A stretch of DNA of 64,000 nucleotides, from the NCBI GenBank assembly GCA_027972325.1, contig JAPMOS010000016.1:248001-312000 (forward strand). The letters are read 5' to 3'. The number at the start of each line of letters is the position of its first letter. Within the stretch, counting starts at the first letter, position 1. Shown here piece by piece: positions 7,193 through 61,900 of the stretch. This stretch comes from Paratrimastix pyriformis (Eukaryota > Preaxostyla > Paratrimastigidae). The notes beneath the pieces are model-generated. The model ran no database searches, had not been told where the DNA came from, and saw only the letters and a program-made list of their open reading frames with translations. The translations under genes were made by a program, and so were the position numbers.

Positions 7193-7710
7193 GACCCGTG
7201 GCCGTCCCCTAGTTGTGGTAGCGACTGTTGCTGGGGTTGAGCAGACGTACATGTACTTCTTCTTGCAGGGTCAAGGACCAGACCGACCGGCGAGCATCAG
7301 GGGCCCGCTCGTGACCGCGCACCAAGACCCATCGAAAAAACGGCCATTGTTTGGAGGCCGCAATCACTCCCCAATGCACTCACCCATTCTCTCTCTTCTC
7401 TCTTTTCCGTCATCCCTCCTGTAGTGGCCTGATCATCACTCCCGTTCGAGTCGCAAAATTGCCCCCCCCCCCCCCCCCCCACCCCCCCCCCCCCCTTGAT
7501 CGGGGGGCCCCTTGCGCCCACGGCCGCGTCGATGGCCGCGCGCTGGCGGAGCAAGGCCCGGCTCTTGGAGGCGGGGTGTAAGCCATGGTGTTTTTCATTG
7601 TGGCCTGTTGCCCCGTTAAGGATGGGAGCGATCAAGACAACAAAAGACTGTTTTTTTTTTTCGACAACCCGTATGGTTAAAAACAAAAGGCGCAAGCGAT
7701 GGAGGTTGCC
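7193..7710. other. Intergenic region with poly-C run
   Basis: Gap between the F-box/SPRY start and the RBM18-like stop, both on the minus strand. It holds an interrupted poly-C run at about 7461-7495, a T9-10 run near 7651 and the third copy of the 30-bp motif (7605-7638). No gene is seen. Confidence 0.55.
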
Positions 7711-40026: not shown

Positions 40027-41034
40027 CCGCCATCGCCCAACCCCCCCAAACCCCAAACCCCCCCAAACTCCCACCTCTCTCCTCTTCTGGTGCCGCCGCC
40101 GCCTCCCCTCGTCACCCCCTCCCGTGGGGCCGGAGGGGACGGGCGGCCATTTTTGGGGGGTGTGTGTGAGCGAGCCTCACCCCTGAGCGCGCGCCCATAC
40201 CTCCCCCCCTCATGCGCCCCCCGTGCCCGCTCCTCCTCCTCCTCCTCCTCGCTTCCACCTCCACCCCTCATCTTGCCCTCTCGTCCTCACCCTCTCCCCT
40301 CTGCCTCATCATCCTCTTCCTCCTCATCCTCCTCTTCCTCCTGCCCTTCGCTTCTCCTTCGGCGGCGCCGGCCACCAGCCTCCCCTTCCCCCCTCCCCGG
40401 CCCATCCCATCCCTCCCTCCACTTGGCCAGGGTGTATACCCCCCCCCCCCCCCCCCTCCATCTCCGTGTGAATATCCCGTGTGTGCTCTTGCCCCTTCCC
40501 TCCTCCTTCCCCTTCCCCTCCTCCCTTGTTCCCCTTCTCCCTTCCCTTCCCCTGTCTGGGGCCCCCGTTGTCGTCGCCGCCTCATCTTCTCTGTCGGCAT
40601 CACCCGCCCTGCCTTCGCCTCCCCGTCTACATCCCCCACCTCTCCCCATCCCCCTCACCCCCATGCCCATCCGCCTCTGTCCAATGCCCCCTTCTTCCCT
40701 CTTCTCGAACAGGACCTTTTCTCTCTCCTTTGGATGGACGGGGCGATGGACGGATGGATGGATGGCGTGCGGGGCACCTTCGGCAGGGTAAGAAACGCCG
40801 CTTAAAATGAGCCCAACCACCCAAAACCGGCCCGCAAAACCCTTAAACGAAATAGGGGGGGGGGGGGGGGGGGGGAAACAACAAATCGGCAATGGGAAGG
40901 AAGGCGAAGGCGAAGGGGAAGAGAGGCCTCCAAGCATTTGACGTCCGTCAGTCCGTCCGGGGGGGAGGGGCGGGGGTCTGCGGCCCCTGAAGGGCATCTT
41001 TTTGCAGCCCCCCCGTTGACCAGGGGCCGGCCGT
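40027..41034. other. Pyrimidine-rich convergent intergenic region
   Basis: About 1 kb between the stops of the NDR kinase and the TLDc gene. It is strongly C/T-rich on the plus strand from about 40080 to 40720, with TCC and CCT runs, a C18 run near 40440 and a G22 run at 40855-40876. Long open frames here on both strands are low-complexity products. No gene is supported. Confidence 0.6.
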
Positions 41035-44000
41035 TTAGGGGGCGGTGCCGCACCTGAAGACCTCGATCTCGGCGATCTTGAAGTCGCGCACGCCCCCGTT
41101 GATGAAGTACCGCGGGGCGCCCGCCGGGGCGGCGTAGGTCGAGTTGGGGTGCGGGAAGATGGTGTTCGAGTTGGTGTGGGCGTCGCTCTGGTCCGAGACG
41201 AACAGCCCGTACATCCCTGCCCGAGGGAATGGGGGAAGAAGGATGATGGGGGAGAAGGTGAGGGCGGTCGGGACGAAAAAGACACGAAGACGAAGACGGA
41301 GATGCGGTGTCCCCCCCAATGATGACGCTTTGACCAGCCGGAGATGTCATCACCACGCACAGGCGAGCAGGAGACAGCGCGAGGCTCATTCTTTTGACTT
41401 TGCGCCCCGGACGGACCGAAGATGGGCCCGCTGGTGGCGCTGCAGCAGACGGCCAGCTCGGGGTGCTTGCCGCTCTGGCCGATCCTGATGGGCGCCTGGC
41501 CGGGGGCCTTCTGGCTCCGCAGGACGAACAGGAAGGCGTGCGGGTCGGCCGCGAAATCCCCGCTGGGCACGGCGTTCCAGGCCACCGAGGCGTACCCCCC
41601 GAAGACGTTGCCCTCCCCGCTCCGCACGACCGTCACGGTGCCGCCCTGGTTGCCGTCGCACAGCTGGTGGAAGGTGGCCGCGTCGAAGCCGTCCCGGGTG
41701 CCGCGCCACAGCAGGGGGCACTCGCCCGCGGCCCGGATGCGGGGCCCGATGAACTGGGTCAGGGCCGTGCCCTCCTCGGGGCTCAGGATGTGCGAGCTCG
41801 GGAACATGGTGCCGCTCGGGACGGGCCGCTGGCCGGCGCTCGGGTCGCCGCCGCCGCCGCCGATCAGGGGCGAGTTGGCCGGGGTCACGGGAGGGGGCGG
41901 GGCCGGCGCGGGCGGCTGGGGCACTTGGAACAGGGCCACCTCCGACAGGACGCCCTCGATCCCGGCCCGGGAGGCGCCCACCCTAATCTTGCACTCGGCC
42001 CCGGGGGCCCCGATGGCCTGGTAGGGCAGAGTGAAGGCGGTGTTGGTGCCGCGGTAGACATCGGCCCAGATGGGCTCGTCCTCGCCCTCGTGGACGCACT
42101 GCACCAGCAGCCGGTACTGCAGGGGCAGCGCGTGGGCGCTGGGGGCGGCGGGGCTGGCCCAGCTCACCTGGAGCAGCGGCTGGGTCGGATGCGGCGTCAG
42201 GACGGGCGGGGCCATCGCGGGGGGAGACGGGATCAGCTGCGCGAGGGGCGAAGGCGGGGGAGGAGGTGACGAGGAGGAGGTGGGACGATCAACAGATGGC
42301 GAGAATGGCCACGGGGCATGTGGGGGCATGTGGGGGCATGTGGGGGCATGTGGGGGCATATGGTCACAGACGGCATCCAGGCGTGCCGAGACAACATCGA
42401 GGAGATCCTGAGTGCGCCGCTGGTTGGCCTCGGTCTCGGCAATCCGGGCCTCTGCCTAAGGGTGGGGGTGAAGAGGGGGAGGAGGAGGGAAGAGAGGGAG
42501 ATGACTTTCCGAAGAGACCCAAGGGGGCGATGCAGACCTCCTCGAGTTTGGTCCGCAGGGCGGCCGCCTCCTGCCGGGCCGTGTCCAGTTCGGCCCGCAA
42601 GGCCGCATCACCCTCGGCGGCCTTGGCACAGGCCTCCCTGAGCACCCGCTCGTCCTCGGCGGCCCCGCGGGTCTGGGCAGCCTGCGCCTCCTCACGCAAG
42701 GCAGCCACGGCTGCGGTCAGCTGGTCGACAACGCGCTGATCGCCATCATCGGCCCGCTTCCTGGCCAGGTCGATGGCCACGTCGGCATGGGCGACGGCGT
42801 TCTGGTCGCCCAGCTCGGCCACCATCCGCGCCTCGGTGACAGCGGCCTGGGCCCGCTTGGCGGCCTCCTCGGTGCGCTGGCGGGCCTCGGTGGCCACCTG
42901 CTCGGTGAAGGCCCGCTGCCGCGAGGCGGCCTCCTCGATGTGCTGCCGGGCCTCGGTTGCGATCTCGTCGGCGTGCTTGGCGCCCTGGGCCGCGAGGGCA
43001 TCGGCATGCTGGGTGCAGTCGGCGAGGCCCTGGTCGGCACGGGCACGGGCATCGAGGAGGGCCCGCTCGGCGGCCGCCTTGTCGGCGTTGACACGCTCGA
43101 GCACGCGCTGGTCGCCGCTTTCGGCCTGCTGCCGAGTCAGGGCAATCTGGGCGCGGGGGACAAAAAACGAGTGTGGCGGCGGATGGGGGGGAGGGACAGA
43201 CCTCGTCCATGGCCCGCTGGTCATTCCGCTCCACCTGGGCCTTCAGGGCGGCCGCATCCGCGCGGATCAGGGCGTCCTCCTGTGCCCCCGAGTTGGACTC
43301 CTTTTGCAGGGCATCGGTGAGCTCGGCTCGCGCGCGTTCCAGATGCTCCGTCAGCCGCTTGGGGCACTCGGAGGCGCGGTGTCGCTCCATCCCGGGGAGA
43401 GCCACAAATTGTCCGCACTCGACGCACGGTTCACCCCGTTCGGGGCATTGGTGACACTCATGTGCCTGCAGCGAGTGCGGGATGACCGGCTGCTGGCACC
43501 GAGGGCAGCTCGACATGCGCCATTCGCAATGCTCATGGAGATGTCGTTCGAGGTCGGGAATCGCGAGAATAGCAGGGCAACCCTGTGAACAATTGGGGCA
43601 TTTTAAGCGCATACGGGACACCACTTTGGCTGCGGTTAAATTAGGGTAAAGGCTATCGGGTGGGTGAGGAGTGGAGGCCGACGAAGAGAAAAGACCGTTC
43701 AACCGGAAACGCGGTGTGGCACACAGGGCACATTCGGTCAGCAGGGACACAGCTTTCGCAAACAGTGTGTCCTTAAGAAAATATAAATGAAATAGATTCT
43801 GTTTGGCAGACCGCACGGCAAAAGCAGTGGATGCTCAAAATGAGAAAAACACCGAGGGCACCTCCAGATGCTTGACTCTTCTGGGGGATCAATGTAGTCG
43901 TAACGCTTTTTCTCGGTCACAGAAGAAATCTGGGGGGTGGATGACTGAGTGGGCTGAGTTTCCATATCCACAGTGTCCTGTTCGGAATGAGACGGAGGCA

Positions 44001-44241: not shown

Positions 44242-46164
44242 ATGAGCCAAGAACGGCCTTCTCCCGAAAAAGTCAATTATCGGCAGGTTGGCAGGCAGAC
44301 ATTGGATCTGTCTCTTGCAAAGAAGACACGGGGTCTGTATTGTTAAAAAAAATGGGCACCGAGTTGACTAGGCCTCATCATCTTCAGGGGCGACTCATTC
44401 TGCGCCGGGTGCGGCGATCCCATCAATCCCATCAAAATATAGCACAGTCTTTGTGTCTAACGCTCAAGAGCGAGACGCTTTTAGTTCCCGAACGCACCGA
44501 TTTCAGGCGAGTGTGCTGGTCTGTAAGGCGTCATGACATGGACTTTCCCACCCACCCCTCTCCAGACCGACATACCAGGCCCCGGCGCCTATGGTGGTTT
44601 GTCTGACTTCGAGCCCAAGAGCGATTCGTTTTCCAAGCGCGGATTTGGCAACTTGGCCTCCCAGGTTTGCCCGGCTCCTGGATCTCTCCTCCACACCTCT
44701 CCCCCACCACAGACGGACCGTTTTCAAGTGCGGCTCCCGCCAGCATTCCCCGGCCCCGGGAGCTACGACACTCCAGTGGCGGTCCCGTCCCCCCCACACA
44801 CCGCGCCACAGAGTTCCGCCTTCTCCCAGCCCATCGCCACGGGGCACATCCCGCGCCCCGTCCTCCCCGGGCCAGGGCAATACGAGGTCTGTGTGGCCAT
44901 GGTCTCCACTTCCCTTTGGATGAGAGGGGCTGAGGGGCGGCCGATGGTGGGCCGAATGTTGTCATTGTTCCTCAGCATTCGCTCCATCCATCCCATCTCC
45001 TGCTGCGCGGCGCCAGGTGAAACCAACGATTGGTGTCGCTCCCCCGGGGCCGTCCCACGCCTTCCGGACGCACACTTCCCACCGAATCCCGCCCCCTCCC
45101 CCATCAAACGCCGAGGGAAGGCCCAGACCCGCAGTCGTGCCACCCCCCGGTCTGTATGACCCACTCACCCCACACACCCTCTCCACCGCTCGTCCGCCCC
45201 TCCCCGCCCCGCCAACCCGCCGCTCATTTTTCGACCTTCGCACAGGGCCCGGATCCTATGACCCCACCCCGCCCATCAGCGCCCCGCCCCAGGTTCGGTC
45301 GGCATTCGTGTCGAAGACCGAGCGGTGCAACTTCATCACCATTGGCGATGCGTCTGTGGGGGCCTGGCCTCACCCTCACGCCCCCCTCTCACACGCGGTC
45401 CTTGCTCGTCTAACGCGTTCCTTTGGTACAGACCTGGCCCCGGGACGTACAGCACCGACGCACCACAGGAGAACGCCTTCTACCAGACGAAGCCATCTCA
45501 GTCTGTCGTCGCCTTGGCACCTCCTCCCTTTTTCACGTGATCACCCACATGTCCCACCCGCCTGGGGCAGCTTCTTCGCGCCGACCGAGACGTCGCGCTT
45601 CGGGCAGACTCCCAAAAAGATTCCAGCGCCTGAGGCTCCAGGACCCGGTCTGTCACGCCCACCCCCCGGTGATATACCCGAGTCGGCATCCACATCATCA
45701 ATGTCATCACCTGGGTGCCTTTTAGGCACGTATAACCCCGGCGGCCCACCCGCGCCCCCACCACCATCGGGGGTGCCGACCACGACGGGGAATGGGATGC
45801 TGATCGAGCGATACCCCCGGCTTCATGCCGAGGCCGACAAGGCCCAAGCACTGGCTCGCCTTTCCGCCCAGTCTGTATCCCCCTCGGCACATTGCCCCGC
45901 TGACTCATTGATCGTGACGTGGTGCAGGGCTCAGATGCGGCTCAACCCCACAATGCGGTTGCCTGCTTCCAATGCCGTCTTTCTCTCCGAGACCAGAAGA
46001 GGCCATTTGCCATCCGATGAGAAACCCGGTCCTGGTCTGTTTCTTCTCTTCATAAATTATGATGACAAACATTCATCCCCTTTTTTTGATTCGCAGCTTT
46101 CTACAAGCCTGTCGGTCCAACACACAAGAGTTTTCACCTCAACATCGATCGTAAATGGCTCTAG
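44242..46164 (+). CDS. SHIPPO / sperm-tail PG-rich repeat protein
   Basis: A microtubule inner or outer protein of flagella, by family. From ATG 44242 (MSQERPSPEKVNYRQVGRQT) an intron GTCTGTATTG...CTTCAG leads to KYSTVFVSNAQERDAFSSRT. Repeats follow with the PGPGxY signature: DIPGPGAYGG, SKRGFGNLA, FPGPGSYDTP, LPGPGQYE, VVPPPGLYDP, TGPGSYDPTPPISAPPQVRS, PGTYSTD, ETSRFGQTPKKIPAPEAPGP, LGTYNPGG and EKPGPA, ending FYKPVGPTHKSFHLNIDRKW then L-stop at 46162-46164. The last intron starts GTCTGTTTC. Its presence indicates the organism builds a flagellum. It is similar to ODF3/STPG proteins, but the exact orthologue is not claimed. Confidence 0.85.
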
Positions 46165-46240: not shown

Positions 46241-49097
46241 ATGAACGTTCCCGATCTTCAATGTCTTCTGGTGCTAAGAGGGTTCAATGAGGAGACAAAT
46301 GCTGCTGCTTTGCGCCAAATGTCCGATTTTCCGACTCGTGCGTTCAAACTCAGTTTTTTTGGCAGATTCCCTACCGCCATCAAGACGCACGTGGCCTATG
46401 GACGAAAGGATGGTCAGACGATTTTCCTTGGATTTGCGGGCCTTCTGTTTGCAACGCCTGAAGAGGCTTCTGACATCCGAAGCAAGTCATTCACAATCGA
46501 TGGGAACGTTTGCACCTTAGAGTATTCCACCGAGCAGGAACGTTTCAGCCTTTTGAAACACCACAAAAAGAATGAGTGTTCCCCTTCCGGGACTGGTTGC
46601 CCGATTTCCAAAACTCATCCGGAATCGTCCGCACCCAATGAGACAACAACCCCGACTTCGCCTCCAGCTGCGACGACGACGACGGATTTACTCCCAGGTT
46701 TGGCCATCTCACCGACCACACACACCAAGAACGCGTCTATTCCCGACAGATATTGAGGGAACGAGCCTCGATCCGGGGACGAAGATCCGAAGCGCCTCCA
46801 CCTCCCCAATCCTCTCCGACCCCTGGCCGATGGGCACCCTGGTAGACCGTCTGTGGCTCTGCTACCCTCTCGCACTCGAACCTTGTGGCTTCACCCCCGC
46901 TGCGCAGTCCACTGGACCGGGACCCTGCTGGAGGATGCCTCCAAGGTTCTGGCGACCACCCGGACCCTGTCCGCGCAGAGCCCGCGCCGGGTCGCCTTGA
47001 CTTCAGGTCGGCACCACCCCGGGGAGACCACCTCTGTCCAGCGCTGCGGCAGCAATCTCGTGTCACGTGCGGCTGTGTGGTGATCATGCTGCTTCATTCC
47101 TTTTCTGCCTCCACTCCCGTTCCTCCCTGGCTGGGGCAGGGGAGCTCCCTCTCCCGGTGCAGCTTGCCGCCCGGGTCATGCAGCCCGGCCAGACGGCCAT
47201 CGTGGTTGCGGACCCCTCACGGACCGAAGGCCTGTCTGACCGCCGGGTGCGGTACGTGGTGGAACTCTTCAAGGTCATCCTCCGCCTCACCGACATGGTC
47301 CGTCCACCTTCTTCATCCTCCTCCCCATTTGTTCCCGTCCGTGAGGGGTGCGCGATGCGGGATCCATGATCATCATTGCCATCCCTGATCCTCGACATGC
47401 CGGCGTCTTCGCTCCCCCACAGCGGCTGGTGCCCCGGTCGCTCGAGGGTAAGATCCGCTACGCCCAGGTCGAGAAGGACAGCGGCAACGAGCTCTTCCAC
47501 GAGAAACGCTGGGCTCAGGCCGCCTCCTGCTTCCAGAGGGTTCGCCCGGGCCCTCACCCCCCAGAAGAGCATGCGTCTCACTCACTCCCTGGGGGGTATG
47601 CAGGCGATCTCGTTCTTCGGAGGGGTCCGCGACCCGCCCGCCGACCTGCTGGCGACGCTGCACCTCAACTTGGCCGCCGCCCAGCTGGGCCTGGGCGAGC
47701 AGCACATCCCGCTGCTCGAGGGGAAGCGCGAGGAGTTCTTCGCCAAGGCAGAAGCCACGTGCACCACAGTCTGTTGCTCTTGCTGCGGTTTCCTCAGCCA
47801 CCGGGGCCCGTAAAAGGGAACACGAGAAAGACCGAAATCACCCAAGAAAGGGAAAACAAAAGGGAGGGAGGACCCACCACCCCGCACACCCCTTAGCGGG
47901 CGCGCACGAGAATGTTTGCGGCGAATACCTCGCGCACCTGGCACGGGGGGGCACGGGTAGGATCTCTCTCTCTCTCTCATCTCTCTCTCTCCTCCTCATG
48001 AAGGGTCTTATGGTATATCTCATGTATCAAAATTTATCGGCCCAATAGTCTAGAGGTTATGATTCCTGTTTTGGGTACAGGAGGTCACGGGTTCGAATCC
48101 CGTTTGGGCCCACTTAATTTTTCCTTTCCCTTTTTTCCCCCCTCTTCAGGTCCTGAGGTCGCTTGCTCCCGACCATCCCAAGGCCCTCTACCGCCGGGCG
48201 CGGGCGCGCATCCTCCATCCGGGCGCCTCGAGGGAACAGCTTCTGAGCGGGCAGGCGGACCTCGCCCAACTCGGACCCAACCCTCCTCCCCAAGCGGCCG
48301 CCCTGCTCCAGTCCGTCCAGGTCTGACGACTGACATCCTGCTTCGACGCCGTCACCGCTCCCGTCCCTCCACAGGACCGGCTTGCGGGCCGGGCCGGGGC
48401 GCCCGTGTACCCCCCGGTCCTGCCTCGGCCCGGCGGGAAGACCGGCCTTCCAACAGCAGACGACGGGCCCGAGTGGGCCCCGCCTGAGCCGTCATCCACC
48501 CCCCTTGTGGTGCCCCCGGGCGCAACAGCAGCCGCACTGCAGTCCGATGCCATGCCGGGGGCGCTGGATGGCCCGGACGTCGCAACGACCATGGCAACTG
48601 CCACCACCACTGCCGCAACCGCCACCACCACCACAACGGCTGCTCCCGGCACCCCCAGCCTCACCACCCCATCCCCCTCTTCTGACACCACCAGCACCAC
48701 CAGCACCACCACGGAGCCCCCGCCCATCCCCCTCCCCAACGCGGCCACCCCCACAGGCGACAAGAGCGCCAGCCCCCCGGCCACGAACCCCCCCGGGTCC
48801 CCCGATTTTCTGGACATGTCCGATCTGATGCCCTTCCTGCTGCCCCATGACGACCCCGGGGGCGCCGACACGGGCGAGGACTACGCCTACGACACGACCC
48901 TGCAGGCCGACGGGACCCCGACGGTGGTCATCTACCGGGAGACCGTCCAGTGGCCCTTCGATGAGGACCGGGGCTGCCCGACCCGGGAGGTGGTCCGGGT
49001 CGAGGTGGGCCGGATGAGCAGGGGGCCCGACGGCCGGTGGGCCCGTGTGCCGCCGCCCGTGGCCGACCCTCCGCCGCCACTCGAAGAACAAAGATGA
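46241..49097 (+). CDS. RRM-like, FKBP-like and TPR domain protein
   Basis: A co-chaperone-type protein by architecture. From ATG 46241 (MNVPDLQCLLVLRGFNEETN) the first exon has an RRM-like fold with GFAGLLFATPEEASD. A GTTTGG...TTGAG intron joins it in frame to EPRSGDEDPKRLHLPNPLRP, and a second (GTAGAC...GCGCAG) completes the FKBP-like strand PVHWTGTLLEDASKVLATTR. LPVQLAARVMQPGQTAIVVA follows. TPR helices read KIRYAQVEKDSGNELFHEKR with WAQAASCFQR, LLATLHLNLAAAQLGLGEQ and, after an intron holding a tRNA gene, LRSLAPDHPKALYRRARARI. A Thr/Pro-rich linker and a conserved-looking end (YRETVQWPFDEDRGCPTREV) close the gene. The FKBP core is short and lacks some active-site residues, so isomerase activity is doubtful. 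The RRM call is tentative; it could be a separate gene. Confidence 0.65.
47962..47993 (+). repeat. TC microsatellite
   Basis: An interrupted run of CT dinucleotides about 45 bp upstream of the tRNA gene, in the same intron. Confidence 0.9.
48039..48110 (+). tRNA. tRNA-Pro (anticodon UGG)
   Basis: A full cloverleaf of 72 nt. The acceptor stem GGCCCAA pairs with TTGGGCC. The anticodon arm CCTGT-TTTGGGT-ACAGG gives anticodon TGG. The T arm ACGGG-TTCGAAT-CCCGT is perfect, with B-box GGTTCGAATCC. The D arm (AGTCTAGAGGTTATG) fits the A box. A T-rich stretch (AATTTTTCC) follows as a Pol III terminator. There is no intron in the tRNA. The gene lies on the same strand inside an intron of the FKBP-like/TPR gene. 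Confidence 0.95.
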
Positions 49098-49274
49098 TCC
49101 CGGAAGCCATCGCCCATCTCTGGTCATCACCGCGGCAAGATGGAGTTTGGGGGGGGGGGGGGGGGGGGGGGGAGGAAGCATGTGGCGGAGTGCGCATGAG
49201 CACGTGTAGGGTGATCACGAGCGCGTGCGGGTGTGTGAAGGGCTGGGAGGGTGTGTCTGTGTGTGCGCGGCGGC
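49098..49274. other. Convergent gap with G25 run
   Basis: 177 bp between the stops of the TPR gene (plus) and Dicer (minus). It contains a G run at 49149-49173 and a GTGTGTCTGTGTGTG stretch. Confidence 0.6.
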
Positions 49275-52200
49275 TTAGGCGGGATGGCCGTGCTCGTCGA
49301 GCATGATCCAGGCGGCCACCTTCTCGGCGTCCCGCTTGGTGGCTGCCTGTCCGGTGGCCTCGCACTGCTGGCCCGCCCAGGCGGCCCGGCAGACGGAGAC
49401 GAAGGCCGGGGCCGGGGGCAGCCTGGTCTGGGTGGTTGCATAGCGGGGCATCCCGCAGAGGCCCTGCATGGCCAGTTCCTGCAGGGTGTTCTTGGCCAGC
49501 GGCCAGCGGGCCCCCGGGGGCAGGTCCTCCGGGCCGGGGATCTTGGCCTTGTCCTCCCAGTCGGGCGGGGGGCCCCAACCCTTGGGAACAGCCGCGGTCC
49601 AGTCGGAGCTGCCGGGCCGCGAGGGGGCGCGGACGCTGCTGCGGGGTGCCGTGGCCCAGCCGCCGCCGCCGCCATCGGCCCACGAGGAGGCCGTGCTGCC
49701 CGCGGCCCAGCCGGAGGCAGTGGTGTCCTCGGTGGCCCAGGAGGCGGCGGGGCTGTGGGCTCGGGGCGGCGGAGGCGGAGGCGGGGCGGCGACCGTCTTG
49801 TGTGTGCGGCGGGTGGCGGTCGATGAGCATGACGGCGGCGGCGAGGCGGAGCGCGGGGTGGCGCTGGCTGCGCGGGGGGTGTGGCCAACCGTCCGGCCTG
49901 TCTGGGCGGGCGTTCCGTCATCCGACGGGATCTCGATCTCCCCCCACTCCGAGTCCGAACCCGTGCCGCTCCCCCACTGCGGTGTCGCCGGCACCTGTGG
50001 GGGTTTCCGAGGAGCCGCAGGTTTGGATGGAGCGGCGCCCCACTGGGCGGGGCCGGCCTCATCACCGGCTTCCCCGCCCCATTCCCCGCCCCAGGACAGG
50101 GCCGGGGCGTCGCCTGGGGTGGGTGCGACCCCTGCCCAGGCTGGTGTGCGGTTGGTCCCCGCCCACCCATCCCCGGGCGGGCCGCCCCAGGAGTCATTGC
50201 AGCTGCTCTGGGCCTCTGGCGCCGCCTGCCGAGAGGTGGGGGGGACCGATGGAACGGAGGTGGGCTTGCCCACTTCCAGGGAAGGTCCAACCAGTGCTGC
50301 TGTTGCTGCTGCCGGGCCTGCCTTCACTCGCGCAGCAGGAGCAGGAGCAGCAGCAGGCAGGCCAAACGGTGGCTCGGCCAGAGGGGCGGGAGGAGGTGGG
50401 CCCGGGGTTTTTCTGACGGCGAAGGAGGGCGGCGGGAGGGCTGCAGTCGGCGGCCCAGCCGAGAAGGCGGCGTCTGGGCCGAGGAGATGCCCCATGCCCC
50501 AGACGATCCGGTCCTCCACCTCGGGGGGGCTGGGCGATGGGGCGGGGAAGACGTGGTCGTCGTTGTTGTTGTCGATGGCCGTCCAGCTTGCCGCCCCGTC
50601 GGCGGATGGGATGATGTGGGAGCCGCCAAGGAATGGAGGGGCGGCTGGGGCGGATGGGATGTGGGAGCCGCCAAGGAAGGGAGGGGCGGCTGGGGCGGCG
50701 GAGGCGCGATCAGAGGTGTCTGTGCTGCCGGCGGCGTGCTGGTCAATGGCGGTGGTGGTGATGATGACCGGCTCCGAGGCGATGTGTGTCCTGATGGCCG
50801 CCGGTGGCGGCTGTTGGGCGGTGCGGATGCAGGATGGCGGCGGCATCATCGCAGCGAGCGGGGGCGGTGGCGAGCGCTCGGGTGGGAGCGAGGGGAAGAT
50901 CGCGGCGGAGTGGGCGTCACCATCCAATGGCGGCGTCAAGGGCGGGACATTGGCCCCCCGGCCCTCGCCTAGCCGTACTGGGGCGGGGGGCACATCCCGA
51001 AAAAAGAGGTGCTGGCATCGAGCTGGTCGAGGACCGCCTGGGCGGCGAGCTTCTCGGAGTCCTTCTTGGTCCGGGCCATCCCGTAGCCGCGCAGGGTCCG
51101 CCCCTCGTGGACCACCGTGCAGGCCGTGTGGAACTCGGGGAACTGGGGCAACTGCACACACCCACGCAGCGGCAATCATCATCAGCATCCAATCAGCATC
51201 CAATCAGCATCCAATCATCATCCAATCATCATCCAATCATCATCATCAATCATCATCGATCATTCATGTCGCACCGAGAATGAACATGAGGAGCGGCCGG
51301 GAATCGGGGGAGGATGGCAGGGGGAGCGGGTGTGTGCGGGGGGGCGTCGGATCCGTGGGAGGCGCCCGCCCACGGACCCCGAGGTTGTCCGTCTCGTACT
51401 GGATGGCACTCACGTCATCGGGGGACTTCTGGCTGCGCTCCAGGAGCCGGTTCTTGGCCAGGGCCGCCTCGATGATCCGATCCTCCATGTAATAGCGGTC
51501 CTCGGCCGGGTCAGGGGGCAGCGGGGCCGCGGCCCGGCCACGGGTGGCGGCGGCGACAGGCAGGCTTGCGGGCGAGGCGGAGGCCCGGGCTGGAGCGGCG
51601 GTTGCCGAAGTGGCCGCCCGGGCCTCGATCTTGCGAAGGACCCCAAGGGCCGCAAGTTTCTCGGCGTCCTTCTTGTTGGTCGCCCGGCCCGAGGCGGACA
51701 GGGGCGACCCCCGGTGGCGGCAGGTGCAGGTGGCGAGGAACAGCGGGATGTGTGATGCCTGGCGGGGGGTGAGGGGTTGGAAGACAGAGAGACGGCGAGG
51801 AAGCAGAAATAGCAAGGTGAGCATGGGGTGAGCATGAGGGTGAGGGGGTGAGCGTGGGGTGGGGGTGACCGGTGTGGGCAAAGGCGAGCATGGGGAAACA
51901 AGGAGCATAAACTCAGCGAAGGGGCGGGGTGAGGGTCAGATGGCCAGGGCATGGCGGACCCCCATCGAGCGCGTGTCGAACTCGACCGCGGCGACCTCCC
52001 AGCGGGGCTGCATGGCCCGCTCGAGGAGCGTGCTCTTGGCCGCCATGGCCTCGGCCAGGCTCTCGAAACTCAGCGGCGGCTCCTCCGCGGCCTCGGCCTC
52101 CGCCTTGGGCTCAGCCCCGGGCTTGGGCTCAGGCTCCATTCCGCCTTCGTCGTCGTCGTCACTTTCTTCAGCCGGGGCGGCCGCTCGGGGTGCTGCTGCG

Positions 52201-54310
52201 GGCGAGGGCGCCGGAGGGGCAGGAGGGGATGCGGCCGGTGTGGTCCGGGCCGCTGGTGCCGGTGCCGGGGAGCGGCTTGGCCCCACGGATGCAAGCGGGA
52301 TTGCCCCACGAGGCGCAGGTGTGGGCGCGGGTGAGGATGCGGGTGACGATGATGCGGGTGGTGGGGGCGCTTGGCGGAATGCGAGGATGATGTCGTTCGT
52401 CAGGCGGAGCAGGTGGCACGCGGCCACCTTCTCGGCGTCCTTCTTGCTCAGGGCCACCCCCCGCGCGGCCACGGGGAACTTGTTGAAGAGCAGGCAGCTG
52501 CAGGTGGCCTCGAAGAGCGGCATGTGCGATTGCTGGTGGGGACGTCCCCGGGCCAGCAGGGGAGAAAGAGCGAACGTCAGATGGCGCGGATCGTTCGGGG
52601 GGTGGGGGTTGGGGAGGTGGGGGTGGGTTGGGTTGGGGAGGTGGGGGAGTGGAGAAGGAGAGGCAAAGGGCGCAGGGGCACATTCAAATGATGGCGAGGC
52701 CGTTGGTGGCGAGTGGGGGGCGGACCCCTTCGGAGCGTGACTCGAACTTGACGGCGTGGATCCTGCCGGCGTGGTTCTGTGCTGCCTCGAGGACGCGGTT
52801 CTTGGCCGAGGCCAACTCGTCCGCCGGCAGGTCCGAGGTCAGCAGCACGGGCGCCTCGGCCGTCATCCGGGCCGCGAGGGCGGCAAGGTCGGCCACCGAC
52901 GCCGATGATGCGCCGCCGGGGGCCGGGGAGATGGGTGCCGGCAGGACGCGTGGCGGGGCAGGCGATGGAGATGGAGATGGGGAAGGAGAAGGGGAGGCGG
53001 CGACGGGCGTGGCGGTAGCGATGCTCGGGGGCGGGGTCGAGGGTGGCGACGGGGCGGATGAGCGGCCGTGCGAGGCCATGATGACGGCGAGGGGCGAGGG
53101 GGGTGCCGCCGGCAGGGGGGCGGCAGCTCGGAAGGCCGCCATGTCCGAGGGCGGTGGCCGGCCCTCGCCAGCCCGCGCCGGGTTGGAGGGCCGCCCGGTG
53201 CGAACGAGGGCGATCATCTCCTGGGCGGCGGCCTTCTCGGCGTCCTTCTTGGAGGAGGCCAGCCCGCGCGCCCAGAGGCCACGCGACTTGCAGGTGCAGG
53301 TGCAGGACACCAGGAAGGTGGGCATGTGGCTCGGCTGTCAAGAAGAAAAGAAGAAGAAGAGGAGGAGGAGGAGGAGGTTATGAGAAACTCGGTGTGCCGT
53401 GGTGGACCGCGACACTTTCAATGAGCATTTGGTAAAAAAACACGAGGGTGGTCACAACCGTCGTGATGGCGTTTGTCCCCAATTCGGCGCTTGGTCCGAC
53501 CTGCGGAAATGTCCCCCCCCCCCCCCCCCCCCCCCCCGCGGGAGGACGGACCCCTGCGCGGCCATCGAGGGTCCACTCGAGGTTGCGCACGAATCCCTGC
53601 TGCTGCATCTCCAGGAGCCGGTTCTTGGCGTTGATGTGACTGGGGCCGTCCCCGCCGGCCCCCGAGAGGTCATCCATGGCCAGGGGCACGTCCGGGTCGA
53701 TCATGTCCGAGGGCAGCGCGTCAATGTCGACCAGCTCCAACGCCGCCCCGGCACTCAGGTCGTCGCACGGGGCCGCCGCCGCCTCCTCGTCATCGCTCAG
53801 CCCCCCTTCCCCATCCTCCGGCTGGGCGTCGGCGCTGTCTTCGTCCGGGGCCGCCAGCTCGGGGCTGCTGCTTGAACTGGCATCGCCCGCCGGGGACGGA
53901 GCCTGCTCGACCACGTCGCCCAGCCCCCCGAGCACCGTCGCCGGCCGGCCCATCCACCAGGGCTGCCCGCCCTTTGGTGTGGCCGCGGGGGTGGGCGCGG
54001 CAGCCTCGGCAGAGGTCGCGGTGGCCGGGGCGGTGGCAGCAGGTGCCGGGGTGGTGGGTGCTGGCGCAGCAGGGGCGGAGGACTTGCCGCTCTCGAGCCA
54101 TTTCATCAAGTCCTGGAGGACCCGCCGGCAGGCCGTGCGGAGGGCGCTGCGGTGGGTGGAGCTGCTGGCGGAGCCCTCGATGAGGGCCTGCTTGAGGAAG
54201 ATGGCCGGGTGCTTGCGGCTGGAGGTCAGGGGGGCCGTCGGAGGCCCCAGGGCCACCTGGACCCGCCAGGGATTCGTCAGCCGCCGGGCATCGTGGACGC
54301 TCCTGGGGGG
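49275..54310 (-). other. Array of six dsRNA-binding domains within Dicer
   Basis: In gene order: dsRBD1 about 54310-54080 (RLTNPWRVQVALGPP, RSALRTACRRVLQDLMKW); dsRBD2 53650-53190 (NAKNRLLEMQQQ, LASSKKDAEKAAAQEM); dsRBD3 52820-52380 (AKNRVLEAAQNH, ALSKKDAEKVAACHLL); dsRBD4 52060-51600 (AKSTLLERAMQP, ATNKKDAEKLAALGVL); dsRBD5 51480-51010 (AKNRLLERSQKS, ARTKKDSEKLAAQAVL); dsRBD6 49490-49275 (AKNTLQELAMQG, AATKRDAEKVAAWIML). The KKDAEKxAA helix is the RNA-binding signature. Domains 2 to 5 are each split by an intron between the first strand and the CTC/PxF block; domain 6 is unsplit. Linkers are Ala/Pro/Ser-rich and acidic. Confidence 0.85.
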
Positions 54311-55751
54311 GGGATGGGCGTGATCACGATACGATGATGAGGGTGTGCCGACCATCATGCTCCCCGACCGACCGGGGTGATAGCCACCCAACCACACCCA
54401 CCAACCACCCCCTCAATGAACCCAAGTGGGGTGGGACTTTCACCACGTTTTCGCATCCTCGGTCTTCATCATCTCATCTCAGACCCACCCCTCTGAACCC
54501 AACCGATGTGGTCTTCAACATCACCCTCGTCTCCTTTCTTTGGACCCGTGCGTGGTGATGTCGGGGGAGAGAACGGACCGTGTGACGAAGCCCAGCCCAT
54601 TCTCGGACCCGATGCGCTTGCAGAAGTGGACCGGCTGGGCCTGGGGGGCCATGGTGGGCGTGACGAAGTGCCTGTAGAGGGGCGCCACGAGGCGGGGGGC
54701 GATCACCTGGGACCACAGGGCCCGCGTCGACCGGCTGATGGCCTCGGCGATCTGGGGGAAGGTCGGCTGCGTGGGGGGGGCGCCATCATCGGCCTCGACG
54801 GGAGGGCGGAAGGTGTTGACCAGAGAGTCGACCAGCATGGCCGCTGGGTGGCGTGGGGCGTGGGGACGAGATCAGACGGGGAAGTGACGAGCACATAGCA
54901 CACGAGGAAGAAAGCTGCGGCCAACCCCCGGTTACCCGGGGGAACGCCACGAAGGAGGGGTGAGGCAGACCGGAGGTGGCCTCAAGATGTCGTTGAGCAC
55001 CTTGGGCGCGGCGGCATCGAGAAATTCCGGCTTGTTCTAAGGAGGCGAGGACGGAGCGGATCATGAAAAATGAGGAGCGGCAGCATCGAGGGGAAGGGAA
55101 TTCTGGTTTGTTCGGCGGGCGGATCCCCAGGCGGAGGAAAAGGTTCGAACAAATGAAAATGAAGTGCCGCACCCCCCTCGTTGCTTGGGCAGGGGGCAGG
55201 GGGCAGGGGCAGGGGGCAGGGGCAGGGGCAGGGGGCAGGGGCAGGGGGCAGGGCAGGAGACAGGAGGCAGTGGCGGACGGTGGCGGTCCACGGGTGGGCG
55301 GCGGTCGAGTGGGTCTCGACCGGCACGGCCTCGGCAAAGGCCATCACGTCCGCACGCAGGTGGGCCGAGAAGGCGAACAGCGACTGTGACGACAGTGGGG
55401 AGTCAAGAGTAGAGTCGGCCGGGTGCCCAGTGAGCACGGCGGGCAAAGGACGTGGAGTGAGAAGAAGAGGCGATGCGTCTGGAGGGGACGGACCCGGGCG
55501 AGGGAGCTGCCCACGGCGCAAGCGCCCAGCATCTCGTTGCAGATGGCGGCCTGGCGGAGGACCGAGATCAGGTCCGGGGTGGCCCGCGGGTAGAGGGCGA
55601 AGAGATCCAGTGTCACCTGGCGTGGGGCGTCGGGAGGGGAACGAGGGGCCGATTGAGTTGGCGGTTGGCCAGCGATCATCATCCGTCATCAATCAATCAA
55701 TCAATCATATCCAGTCATCATCATCATCATCATCCGCATCGTCGTCATCCG

Positions 55752-55839
<88 letters not shown>

Positions 55840-58800
55840 GTCATCATCCAATCATCATCATCCAATCATCATCATCCAATCATCATCATCATCCAATCAT
55901 CATCATCCAATCATCATCATCCAATCATCATCATCCAATCATCATCATCCAATCATCATCATCATCATCCAGTCATCATCATCCAGGCATCATCAATCAT
56001 CATCACCCAGCCATCATCACCCAGCCATCATCACTCAGCCATCATCACCCATCCATCGTCACCCAGCCATCATCTTCCGATCAGCGGACCATGAACTCGA
56101 GGAAGGCGTCGCCGAGGAACTCCAGCCGCTGGTATGTCTGGCACCCTGTGCAGTAGAGCACCCCCCACCCCATAGCAGGTGACCCCACGAACAGAAGCCC
56201 AGGTGAGCATGACCGAAAACCTGGGAGCAAGACAACAGAATAACCTGGGAGGAGGCCGCCGGGCCAGAATGGATGCTGGCGCGCGGACCGATGGGTGTGA
56301 GTGCCTGGTGCTCGGCTGCCAGCAGCCCCGAGGGGTGCGTCAGGGCCTGTGCGAGCAGCCCCAGGCCCGGCCCGTGGAAGCGGTACCCGAGGACCTCGTC
56401 CTGGAGGGACTTGAAGGCGGCCGCGCGCAGGGTGGTGATTTCCTGGTGCCGACGGGCCCGGATCTCGGCGCCGTCAGCCTCGGGTTCGGTTTCTGGTCGT
56501 GCGGGTCAGCGGGTGCGAATGAGGGGGAGCGATGAAGCCGGGAAATGACGGGATTTCTTGGGGCAGACCGATGGGTCCGGGGCTTTCGTCACCATCAGCA
56601 GCGGCAGCCGCCGGGGCCGCCGCGCTGGCCACGACGGCCTCCAGCGGAGGGGGGATCTCGGCCCATTCCCGGACGAGGCCCGGCCAGCACTGGATCACCC
56701 AGAGCTCGGGGCCCATGACGCTCAGCAGGCGGTGGGTGAGATGAAGGGCGCCCAGGAAGCCGCCGCACCGGTAGGCCATTCCTGGAAGGGAAGGGAAGGG
56801 AAGGGAAGGGAAGGGAAGGGAAGGGAAGGGAAGGGAAGGGAAGGGAAGGGAAGGGAAGGGAAGGGAAGGGATGGGATGGGATGGGATGGGATGGGATGGG
56901 ATGGGATGGGATGGGATGGGAGCATTGAAGTGATGAAGCAATGAAGGGCGCACAAGAACCCGCGTCTGCCGCTGTGACCCAGCACAGAGACGGGATGGAT
57001 GGGATGGGAGCATCTGAAGGGATGAAGCAAGAACCCGCCGCCCCGGTATGCCACTCCTGAGCGCCAGCACAGAGACGGGACGGACCAATGAGGGCCTCCA
57101 CCGAGTCGGCGACGGCCTTCGATCCGAGGACGGTCGCCGCGGCCTCCTTGTCCTCCTTCGCCCGGGCGGCCTTCTCGTGCTCGCTCTCATGCTCATCATC
57201 GTCCTCGCCCTCGCCCTCGTCCTCATCCACACCCTCATCCTCATCCTCGGGCTCATCGCCTTCGTCATCGTCCTTGCGGGCCCCCTCGGATCGATCAACG
57301 CAGCACCGCTTGTCGCGATGCTCACTGGGGTTCGACTTGGCGAGCGGGGGGCGTGAGCGAGGGCAACAAGGGATAGACCAGAGAACCGGGGGCTGCAGGG
57401 CCAGGCAGCTGGGCAGGGCGGGCAGGTGGCGCAGGACGGAATTGCACAGGAACGAGTTCGACACCAGCCGCATCCGCAACCGGGTCAGCTGGCCCTCGTC
57501 CTGTGGGGGGAGGGCGTCCGTACGGGGGGGTGCTCGTGCGTGAGCCGATCCACGTGTGCCCCAACATGGAATGAGGCAACCGCCCCCCATCGCTGCGAAC
57601 CGCCGAGCAGGGCGGACCTTCAGCGGGTACTTGGCGTAGAGGTGCAGGGCCGTCGCGAAGCAGAGGAAGGCGTCGCCGAGGGTCTCGAACTTCTCCAAGT
57701 CGATCACGTCCTGCGCCGGCGGGCACGCAAAGGGGAGGAACAAGTGGGTGATGACAAAAGGAGGGCCGAGAGTGACAGACGTGAGCCCGCTTGGAAGTTG
57801 TTGCCTCCAAGATCCAGTCGCGAACCATCCGCCAGTGCATCATCGTGCCCTTCCGTTCGCCGCCGCCAGCGCGCGGCTCTGCGCGGGCACGGGCGTTGAC
57901 GTCGAAAATGGCCAGGGCGGGTTCGGGGGCATCGGGTCTGATGCTGAGCATCTCGGCCAGCTCGCAGGCCCGGGCGAGGCCCTCCAGGCGCCCGACCAGG
58001 GCCCCCAGGTAGCGGCGTGCCGAGAGGATGGACCCGGGCTGCCGGTAGGGCTCGGTGAACTCGGGGATCAGAAGGGCCACAAAGCGAGGCTGGCTGGCGG
58101 GCGACTGGGGCGGGGCCTCCTCGCCCAGGAGCAGCGATCCCCATGCGCTGTGCTCGGCCTCGACATGGGCCGGGTGGGCCATCGCCATGTACGACAGCAG
58201 CGGGAGCCGCTTGGTCTGGCCCGCAAAGGGCACCGCCTTGATCAGGTGCGCGCCCAAGTCCTGCACGGTGAGCTGGTAGGTGTCCCGATAGTAGTCGCGG
58301 AAGGTGGGGCCCTTCGCAGGCTCCGGGAACTAAATAGCGGGGATGATCAAAGGGCGCGATGAGTGGGTGGAATAAGGGTGGCAGAGCGCATGAGGAAGAC
58401 CAACCGGGGAGGTGGCTGTCACGGTTGTGTCGACGCCCTGGCAGATATACAGGGCTCCGTTGTACACCGTGCGCACGATCATGCCCGCCTTCCACTCGGT
58501 GGCGCCTCGCCCTGGCCCCCCGGTGCGGCATTCCCACAGCAGCCGGCCGACCATAGGCCAGTCCACTTCCGTGTGGCCTGTCCCGTCCGTGGCGGGGCAG
58601 AGGGGCACCGCAAGAAAGTGTCGGCCGGCGGCCGGACGTGGAGCGGATGGGGTTGGGAAGCCTGCCGCGGCGAGGTGGTCCCAGGCAGGGGCCGGGACCG
58701 GGGCAGTACTGGCGGGGCAGGAGGAGGGCGACTGGTAGAGGGGCGAGTTGGCGGGCGGGGGGACGAAGCCGGAGGGGCGGTATCGGCCGAAGAGCGCCTG

Positions 58801-58888
58801 GTGGGCCGACAGGAGCGTCGCCATCTCCAGGGGGGTCGTCTCCACCAGGCCTGTGTGTGTGTTGTGTGTTGTGTGTGCGTGGGGGGAT

Positions 58889-58920
<32 letters not shown>

Positions 58921-61900
58921 GGAGGACACGTGAGCTCATGGCGAGCTGTGAATTTTCCACCCAAAAGCGGGGTCTTTGCGAGCGGGGCCGTTGGCGGACC
59001 GTTGGACTCCCACCAGACGTCGCACTGCAGGGTGGCCACCCTGCCCCCCTCGGCGCCGGCCGTCTCACCCCGCCAAACGGCCTCCGTCAGCTGCAGCTCC
59101 TCCTCGCGGCTGATCCAGCCCAGGGTGTGGGCATGGGCCAGGGTCAGGTGCACCACGAACGGGGCCTCGGTGACCCCGGGGGGGAGGGTGTGCCCCAGGA
59201 GAAGCCCCAGGGGCATAACGAAGGATGGTCGGCTGAGGCGCAGCGAGGGCCCGGGATCAGACGACGGCTTGGTGGCGGGGGCGACGGGGGAGTGCGGGTA
59301 GCGGGCCGGGTCGGACTCGGCCAGCTCCAACACGCGACATACCTGCAGATGGGAAAGCAGGAAGAGATTGGCGGAGTTGATGTGATAATGCTGATCCTGA
59401 TGCTGATGGTGATGGTGATGCTGATGCTGGTGATGCTGATGATGCTGATGATGCTGATGATGCTGAATGCTGATGGTGATGGTGATGGTGATGCTGATGC
59501 TGATGATGCTGATGCTGAATGCTGATGATGATGATGCTGGTGCTGATGCTGATGATGATGATGAGGTGGCATGAGACCGAACACGCGAACGGACCTGCAC
59601 AGGGTGATTTGCACGGTCGGCCCGTGCGGTGCGGGTGCCTGCTGGGGCGGCGTCTGTCGCGGCCGCCGAGACGGTGGCCTCCGGGGTGCCCGCACTGACG
59701 CCGCCGATGACGTGGGTCCCCACAAGGCGGGCCTGGTAGCTGTGCACCATATAGCGCCAGCCCGGGGCCCGCGGGGAGAGGGCCTGGTAGGGCACCCAAG
59801 AGGCCGGGCGGGGAGCCGGCCGGGAGGCAGGCGGCGGGGGTGGTTGTTGTGGGGGAGCGTTGCTGAGGCAGCGGGGGATGCGCGGCTGATGGGGGACGGT
59901 GAAGCGGGAGTTCTTGCCTGTTGGGGGGAAGAGGTGTGGGAATGAGGGTCACGCCCGGCTGAGCGAGGGGGTGGCAGACCACGACGTGGCAGGCGATCTC
60001 CCTCCACTCCGCTCACATCGCGGGTGCCGTCGTCGCCCGAGTCGTCGCCGTCACCGTCATCGTCACCGTCGCTGAGCGGGAGGTCGTCCCCCTCGTCTTG
60101 CCTGCCGGGTGAGATAACGGGGGGAGGAAGCAGTGAGCGGAAGAAGAAAGAAAAGCAGGCTCGTTCCGGTGCACTCCTCCATCAGACGCCCCCCCCCCCC
60201 CCCCCCCCATCCATCCATGGGACAGGCCTTCCCACGGTCGGCAGGAGGCGGTCAGAGAGCAGCCCCGCCTGGTGCAGAGCCCGGCAGCACAGGAAGGCTG
60301 CCTGCCGGCGGGCGTCGCGGTCGCTGGGCTGGGCGGACGAGGTGAAGGTCCGGAGGGCCAACGGGGTTGTCGGCGGCATCCTGACGGTGCAGACGAAGAG
60401 GGGCTCCCCACTGCCAAAACAAATCAGAAACCAGAATTCAGAAGAAAGGAGGAGAAGACGTGAAGCGCCACGTTGATGTGGTTGCCATCCCGCCATCACC
60501 ACGGAGGAGAGAGGGAGGCAGCAGCATCCCCAAGGACCTGCCAGGCTCGTTGTGACTCTCCACCCGGAACTCGGGGCGCGGCTGATAGTAAGCGTCGTGC
60601 CGCAGGGCGGCGCAGTACATGTGCAACAGCGCCACAGCCGACTGCCAGCTGACGAGGGCGCCCCGACCGGTGGTGTAGTGGTGCTCGGCGTCGAGGATGG
60701 CGGTGGGCGGGGGCGTGATGCCTGCCAGGTCGGCATCCAGGCCGAAGTCGGGAAGCAGGCGCGACTCGTCCTTCATCTCGGCCCCGCCCTGTGTGGAGAG
60801 AGAGTGAAAAAGGGCACGTTGAACACCCGTCCGAGTGCAGTGGTGGTGAGGGCATGGCCGTTGGGGGGCAGGAGAAGAGGGAAACCAGACCGAGTCCACG
60901 ATCTGCTTCATGGCCAGGCTGCGCATCCGCTCCTCGGAGGCGTTCCAGATCTGGATGCGCCGCTGGACGGCCGCCCGCTCGGGGTATGAGGTCATCTCGG
61001 CGAAGCTGCTCCCGTCCCGCTGCCGGGCCCGGCCGCGAGCCTGCGGTGCCACGTGGTGGACAGCAGCGTTCAGGCCCCTGACAACCCGTCACATACGCAC
61101 ACGTCTGACACATACGCACACGCCTGACATAGACGCACACGCCTGACATAGACGCACACACCTGACATACGCGCACACCAGCCCCATACGCACACGCCTG
61201 ACACACCTGGCGACACAATACGCACTTGGCGGACACCTGAATCTTCCTTCTTCCTTCTGCTTCTGTACGACACACACCTGACACTGGCCACAGACACACC
61301 TGGTTTTTTCATGGGGCGACGGACCTGCAGCCGGCCCACCAGAGTCAGGGGCGGGTCGAAGAGCACCACCGTGTTGCAGGCTTGCACGTCGAGCCCCTCC
61401 TCCACGACGCTGGTACTGAAGAGGAGCCGGTAGCGGGCCTCGCGAAACCGCTCCACCACCTGCCGCTGGGCCCTGGCACACATGCCTGCACACCGCCCGG
61501 ATCAGTGCGCCGGGTGGCAGGCGCGTGAGCGGGTGATGACAGACAGTGGGGGGAAGGTGGGAAGGGGGACCTGGGGTCAGGAAGACAGACCGGCTTCCGG
61601 GTTGAAGGCCGCCGTTGCGGCGGCCCCACTGGCCGCACTGGACTGGGAGACGGTATCCCAGTCGATGTCCTCGGTCTCCATCTCGGCGCCCTCGCCCCCC
61701 TCCGCGCCCATCTCAGGGGCCAGTCGCGGGTCCGCGGGGCCCGGGGAGACCAGGTTGCCCTCGTGCACACCGTGGCCCACGATGAAGCTGCGGGAGGGAA
61801 CCCACAAAAAAAGACCGAGTGAGAACGTGCCCATGCGGGTGGACAGCGGGGGGGGGGGGGGGGGGGGGGGGCGATCAAAAAAGACGGAGAGACAGAACGT

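Follow-up and report, generated by a model that had tools for sequence, protein, structure and literature searches.

The window analysed here is a stretch of 64,000 nucleotides (nt) of Paratrimastix pyriformis (assembly GCA_027972325.1, contig JAPMOS010000016.1, 680,000 bases long, positions 248001-312000); window coordinates are used throughout, and the genome searches covered the 56-Mb assembly. The minus strand of the contig carries a gene, from about 64202 to 49275 and with its 5' end beyond the window, whose predicted product is a Dicer with a tail of five recognisable double-stranded RNA-binding domains (dsRBDs) and a tryptophan-rich stretch before the last of these. We propose, with a probability of a little under 0.6, that the protein joins in cis a Dicer, the function of a dsRNA-binding partner protein and an Argonaute-recruiting stretch.

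Starting from the domains, the exon chain, the intron phase and the tryptophan block seen in the DNA, we infer RNA binding, Argonaute binding and a hand-over as follows. The tail would comprise four duplicated dsRBDs and one terminal dsRBD on long low-complexity spacers, with the tryptophan stretch before the last domain. The helicase, PAZ and RNase III core would cleave dsRNA in the manner of other Dicers, and the dsRBDs of the tail would grip the substrate before the cut and the duplex after it. By docking in the pockets of a Piwi/Argonaute protein, the tryptophans would let the duplex be passed on within the same protein. This would be a cis version of the role that Loqs, R2D2 and TRBP play in trans.

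The Dicer core and its tandem dsRNA-binding domains

The Dicer core named in a preliminary description of this DNA is borne out on the minus strand by Pfam, PAZ alone falling under its cut-off. The spliced protein matches DEAD (2.8e-16), Helicase_C (2.9e-11), Dicer_dimer (1.3e-22) and, in two stretches, Ribonuclease_3 (PF00636, 4.6e-25). Catalytic acidic motifs were recognised by eye in both RNase III domains, in RNase IIIb only when it is read through a break in the frame, called break (a) below. The best PDB match of the RNase IIIb piece is Dicer homolog 1 (7eld, 1.1e-18), and the alignment spans this break. On these sequence matches, the encoded protein is a Dicer, with the following gene and core.

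49275-64000, minus strand: Dicer gene, in-window part; hand-built model of 34 exons, stop codon TAA at 49277-49275
60891-64000, minus strand: helicase module, in-window part (Pfam DEAD 60.1 bits, Helicase_C 44.0 bits)
60228-60788, minus strand: DUF283 / Dicer dimerisation domain, exons 14-15 (PF03368, 8.1e-25, plus a weak dsrm match of 20.2 bits)
57781-58850, minus strand: PAZ region and connector, exons 19-20 (PF02170, 6.5e-5; 23.3 bits, under the cut-off of 28.8)
56569-57710, minus strand: RNase IIIa, exons 21-23 (PF00636; FETLGD and DSVEALIG motifs by eye)
54579-56492, minus strand: RNase IIIb, exons 24-29 (PF00636, best stretch 1690-1808; RLEFLGD and NDI-X-EA motifs)

Beyond RNase IIIb the preliminary description had placed six dsRBDs (dsrm, PF00035; curated cut-off 23 bits), of which dsRBD2 to dsRBD6 were scanned as cut pieces.

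54095-54637, minus strand: dsRBD1 position, degenerate, split by an intron at 54303-54578; no Pfam match
53197-53635, minus strand: dsRBD2, phase-0 intron 53335-53551; PF00035 35.0 bits
52392-52815, minus strand: dsRBD3, phase-0 intron 52533-52725; PF00035 23.3 bits
51621-52046, minus strand: dsRBD4, phase-0 intron 51759-51959; PF00035 25.1 bits
51014-51467, minus strand: dsRBD5, phase-0 intron 51152-51377; PF00035 27.4 bits
49284-49502, minus strand: dsRBD6, without intron; PF00035 27.3 bits

All of dsRBD2 to dsRBD6 lie over the cut-off, dsRBD6 with a score of 26.9 bits in the genome scan and 22.2 bits, under the cut-off, within its full open reading frame (ORF) of 641 amino acids (aa). A model of dsRBD6 from a five-row alignment (predicted local distance difference test, pLDDT, 82) has the order helix, three strands, helix, and Foldseek gives 1di2 as its top match (E 1.1e-4) with 12 matches at E<=0.001. 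The closest PDB sequence to both dsRBD2 and dsRBD6 is DRB4 (2.9e-4 and 8.1e-7 respectively), followed by other dsRBD proteins. The alignment of dsRBD2-6 has 14 invariant columns, and dsRBD6 shares 11 with the second halves of dsRBD2-5; identity to dsRBD2 is 39% for dsRBD3, 36% for dsRBD4, 30% for dsRBD5 and 31% for dsRBD6. The signature of RNA binding in dsRBDs is a glutamate in helix 1, a GPxH loop and KKxA in helix 2. The helix-1 glutamate, an SH in the loop and KKDAEK are all retained in dsRBD2-4. The second helix, previously described as KKDAEK-type in all six domains, is exactly KKDAEK in these three, reads KKDSEK in dsRBD5 and KRDAEK in dsRBD6, and is lacking at the dsRBD1 position.

The remaining domain, dsRBD1, was rejected as a recognisable dsRBD. 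The segment gives zero Pfam matches at E<=10 and three PDB matches at E<=10, all irrelevant; PDB alignments of Dicers stop short of it, their best stretches ending by residue 196 of 347; and its exon-30 part models poorly (pLDDT 56.5). Because this segment beside RNase IIIb matches nothing, the supported dsRBDs number five, not six.

The exons hold the array together. In exon 30 the dsRBD1 position is followed by the opening half of dsRBD2, in a single frame that is open throughout, as had been stated, and exons 31, 32 and 33 each encode the closing half of a dsRBD together with the opening half of its successor, again in one open frame. This locked chain places dsRBD2-5 on one transcript. All four array introns are in phase 0 and at the same position, G|xxxxPxF, and the common first helix described earlier is found in dsRBD2-5 as AK(N/S)(R/T)(L/V)LE. 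Judged from the sequence, the likeliest origin of dsRBD2-5 is the duplication of a unit carrying the phase-0 intron; the tandem duplication of a two-exon unit suggested before is well supported for these four by the intron position and by the 30-39% identity of dsRBD3-5 to dsRBD2, and lacks such support for the intronless dsRBD6 and for dsRBD1.

A separate start for the array was looked for and not seen. That the array is an independently starting gene was rejected on the exon structure: exon 30 carries both the dsRBD1 position and the beginning of dsRBD2, and it splices in frame to exon 29, which belongs to RNase IIIb. The intron between RNase IIIb and dsRBD1 does keep the frame, as claimed, and its donor is probably GTCCGT at 54578; the GTCCAA proposed previously lies 33 nt beyond, and the frame is kept with either.

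The tryptophan-rich block

A block not mentioned in the preliminary description lies between dsRBD5 and dsRBD6:

49557-50189, minus strand: tryptophan-rich GW/WG block, candidate Argonaute hook, on tryptophan count and context

The spacer between dsRBD5 and dsRBD6 (490 aa) has 17 tryptophans and 12 GW/WG pairs, whereas spacers 1-4 (154, 128, 111 and 49 aa) have 3, 0, 0 and 0 tryptophans and no GW/WG. Within it, a stretch of 225 aa holds 15 tryptophans, a single leucine and no phenylalanine, tyrosine or methionine, leaving histidine as the sole other aromatic residue of the block. The 15 tryptophans are spaced by gaps of 4-22, plus one of 69. Adjacency of tryptophan and glycine in the 353-aa tryptophan span is 11, compared to 3.7 expected (p 2e-4, 20,000 shuffles). 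The surroundings of the tryptophans are small or acidic, bulky and basic residues being absent up to two positions away, for 13/15 in the block and 1/22 in the Dicer core. As a control, 132 ORFs of at least 225 aa were taken from the window and from stretches L003, L014 and L015. Tryptophan-rich windows occur in 3/132, and in the other two of these 4/23 and 2/15 tryptophans have the small or acidic context.

The reading frame of the block contains 16 tryptophans and the two remaining minus frames 4 each. In a codon model of the block alone (50228-49554) its frame beats those two by 96 or more. The block as a mere by-product of G-rich DNA is unlikely. In its composition, from which alone its disorder is judged, and in the context of its tryptophans, the block resembles a GW/WG Argonaute hook, and we give even odds that it would function as one.

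The tryptophans could instead belong to a disordered linker that serves condensation or some other binding. Low-complexity spacers are common in this Dicer, tryptophan-rich disorder may have other uses, and low-complexity DNA also produces GW-rich readings, as in the plus-strand ORF at 8871-9545. We nevertheless regard this as rather unlikely, as GW/WG pairs go from 0 in spacers 1-4 to 12 in the last, and as tryptophan is the sole aromatic save histidine and stands in the context described for hooks (in the account of PMC10991848). That plus-strand ORF has 23 tryptophans and 17 GW/WG, exceeding the block; it is probably non-coding, low-complexity sequence. Counts alone hence make no hook, and it is the context that discriminates. 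The surrounding region, 7433-9889 on the plus strand, is an extended tract of low complexity in which open frames of 819 and 338 aa overlap, one being GW-rich through repetition; it probably represents a repeat, or else the strand opposite a repetitive gene.

Splice sites and frame breaks

The exons of the Dicer gene were placed by hand and splice sites then picked so that exon frames join; the start ATG, at about 64202 in the adjoining stretch L003, was picked by eye. In a first model 8/33 exon joins were out of frame. Shifting six donors and one acceptor settled seven of them, the eighth being break (a) in exon 28, so that the model is fitted at those seven joins; two of the six shifted donors are GTCYGY and one is GC. 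A GC donor is required for intron 15. In the four array introns the sole adjustment was a one-base shift to G|GTCCGY. The acceptors are YAG in 33/33 (30 CAG, 3 TAG). As assembled, the gene contains two frame breaks, inside exons 28 and 34, and we are highly confident of its structure as far as dsRBD5.

The donors are GTCYGY in 24/33 and GTC in 29/33, and none (0/33) is GTRAGT. The hexamer GTCYGY occurs only 35 times in the 14,928 nt of the gene, 24 of these at predicted donors that include all four array introns, and the donors are therefore close to deterministic. The usual 5' end of U1 is ATACTTACC. Independent support for these donors comes from U1, for which all 8/8 matches in the genome (L027-L034) start with ATACAGACC, which pairs with AG|GTCTGT; these matches are all under the Rfam cut-off (best 60.2 against 69.5 bits; 41/992 candidates scored). 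The U6 matches above the cut-off (4/8) have the ACAGAGA box. There is thus an apparent co-change of the U1 5' end and the donor sites, the latter taken from the introns of the Dicer gene, with the ACAGAGA of U6 kept.

The features at the breaks are the following.

54980-54990, minus strand: break (a), exon 28, RNase IIIb; PKVLNDI upstream and EATSAAMLVDS downstream are in different frames
50999-51005, minus strand: T_TTT_TTC heptamer, in-frame X_XXY_YYZ at break (b)
50951-50994, minus strand: GC-rich stem-loop, predicted fold, beginning 4-7 nt past the heptamer

Since the alignment to Dicer homolog 1 passes through break (a), this break lies in the assembly and does not reflect a wrong exon. 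Two breaks, one of them in RNase IIIb, are what a decaying pseudogene might show. Such decay is most improbable, as the 33 exon joins can be made without loss of frame, the exons of the array have open frames, the catalytic motifs are intact on either side of the RNase IIIb break, and a weak search found no other Dicer.

Break (b) lies between dsRBD5 and dsRBD6. The reading frame of the array is interrupted here: the frame of dsRBD5 stops at TAG 50971-50969, and dsRBD6 is in the -1 frame, which stays open over 51203-49275. By a codon model that was trained on the remaining exons, the frame switch falls at 50969-50970, a position partly forced by the stop codon. Past dsRBD5, 23 of 27 windows of this model favour the dsRBD6 frame, and over 50960-49530 that frame is the likeliest of all six, at -5364; a plus frame comes second, at -5539. 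An intron with a consensus donor that would bridge the two frames was rejected, there being no GTCYGY between dsRBD5 and the stop; the rejection covers GTCYGY, and at least two non-consensus GT sites are possible there.

Taken as written, the assembly would have the Dicer end at TAG 50971 with four recognisable dsRBDs in its tail, and the ORF of about 641 aa, which encodes the tryptophan block and dsRBD6 and has in-frame ATGs, would be either a gene in its own right or a defunct relic. We consider this improbable. The coding signal switches frame within bases and leaves no space for a 3' end and a promoter (the position being partly forced by the stop), GTCYGY donors are absent between dsRBD5 and the stop, and helix 2 of dsRBD6 is like that of the other dsRBDs.

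Break (b) might also be a site of programmed -1 frameshifting on T_TTT_TTC. One mRNA would then yield two Dicers, of which the short form would stop behind dsRBD5 and the less frequent long form would continue through the tryptophan block and dsRBD6. The heptamer has precisely the required register and shifts to the right frame; among the 3286 codons there is no second slippery heptamer in frame, and in the exons no second T6 run (other runs there are 18 of C6 or longer and 8 of G6 or longer); the GC stem begins just past it, and the frame-0 stop is within 30 nt. The stem is, however, in folds without pseudoknots, no stronger than those of shuffled sequences (z = -0.20; 80/200 shuffles fold equally well), cellular frameshift genes are rare, and the breaks in RNase IIIb and in the DIS3-like gene upstream, which have no slippery site, show that indel errors occur nearby. 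For these reasons frameshifting seems quite improbable, and we give little credence to a short Dicer with four recognisable tail dsRBDs accompanied by a minor long form. If it were true, the ribosome would set the share of Dicer able to pass its products to Piwi/Argonaute.

An assembly indel of one base is the likelier cause of break (b), given that the other two breaks occur without a slippery site. The DIS3-like gene (L003, about 3400-3430) has its frame break just before FTSPIRRYPD, with about three residues gone, which may reflect a mistake in the assembly or true damage to the gene; the missing residues make the type of error mixed. We treat break (b) as an assembly error of one base, which would make the tail a single protein throughout; the tryptophan block and dsRBD6 probably do belong to the same protein as the rest of the Dicer.

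Several observations weigh against the proposed fusion of Dicer, partner and hook, in addition to the failure of dsRBD1 as a recognisable dsRBD, the two frame breaks with one inside catalytic RNase IIIb, and the plus-strand ORF that exceeds the block. The histidine of the second loop is lacking in dsRBD5 and dsRBD6. One plus frame across the block holds 15 tryptophans, and for the block alone the codon model ties with an antisense plus frame (-2517.3 for its own frame, -2518.0 for the plus frame). In the tail ORF, dsrm is the sole Pfam match at E<=10. Four of the 27 windows past dsRBD5 favour other frames, three the old one (50491-50222) and one the third. The Argonautes of the genome are Piwi-like, the array is known here from one genome, and the search with PF00636 missed even this Dicer and is uninformative on others.

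Related genes, neighbouring features and known systems

The genome contains two Piwi-like genes, one near PIWI proteins (2.4e-35) and one weak, with a single PDB match (2.4e-6), and two RNA-dependent RNA polymerase loci. The weaker, divergent Piwi-like gene lies in L015 (C445:1-9000), near a contig end. Single-exon searches of the genome, which are weak, gave no dsRBD gene elsewhere: PF00035, for which 6 candidates were scored, had two matches, and a query with a dsRBD protein had five, all in the Dicer gene. The RNase IIIb query, also weak, had six matches, all in the Dicer gene, and no other Dicer. As the searches were single-exon and PF00636 missed the Dicer gene, absence of dsRBD or Dicer genes elsewhere is only suggested; replacement of separate partner proteins by the tail fits the two weak dsRBD searches.

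The DIS3-like gene upstream is on the same strand as the Dicer gene, and a TPR-like gene, recognised by eye, runs toward it from downstream. A tRNA-Pro (TGG) gene, at 48039-48111 on the plus strand, is within an apparent intron (by eye) of the TPR-like gene. Mononucleotide tracts are found just past the Dicer stop (G24, 49149-49172) and in intron 30 (C25, 53513-53537). By eye, 44530-45900 on the plus strand has PGPG-type repeats resembling SHIPPO/ODF3 flagellar proteins, which suggest a flagellated organism, and 41000-43830 on the minus strand is a gene that looks zinc-finger/TRAF-like where it begins and TLDc-like where it ends.

Plant DCLs have up to two dsRBDs. The canonical Dicers, animal Dicer and plant DCLs, share with the present protein the helicase, DUF283, RNase IIIa and IIIb and, probably, the PAZ region, and differ in that five recognisable dsRBDs and a tryptophan-rich spacer are found here; the common architecture is described as having one C-terminal dsRBD (PMC10328071). 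Dcr1 of Kluyveromyces polysporus likewise has a tandem dsRBD on an RNase III enzyme, according to the same source, and differs in its single RNase III domain and noncanonical architecture. Among the papers listed by full-text searches of the open-access literature, the titles and abstract openings showed no Dicer that has over two C-terminal dsRBDs or any GW/WG stretch, a weak negative.

Argonaute hooks are described as disordered, with tryptophan mostly as GW or WG (PMC10991848), and the GW repeats of Tetrahymena CnjB and Wag1 have been termed an AGO hook (PMC5666084). Repeated tryptophans, mostly in GW/WG and in disordered sequence, are reported for GW182/TNRC6, NRPE1, SPT6L, CnjB and Wag1, as in the block here; none of these listed hooks is on a Dicer, and the candidate described here is known from its sequence. 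The TNRC6 sites are given as two tryptophans spaced by ten residues or more (PMC9262622), and the gaps here (4-22 and one of 69) are partly under this spacing.

Dicer partners are divided in a review into two main kinds, of which separate proteins carrying tandem arrays of dsRBDs form one, and such partners are said to aid recognition, fidelity and Argonaute loading (PMC10328071). TRBP, Loqs-PD, R2D2 and plant DRB4/HYL1 are separate proteins, whereas here the dsRBDs are fused to the nuclease, and dsRBD6 is closest in PDB sequence to one such partner, DRB4 (8.1e-7). If the proposal is right, this protein would be a natural single chain of Dicer and partner, in which removal part by part would test each role directly.

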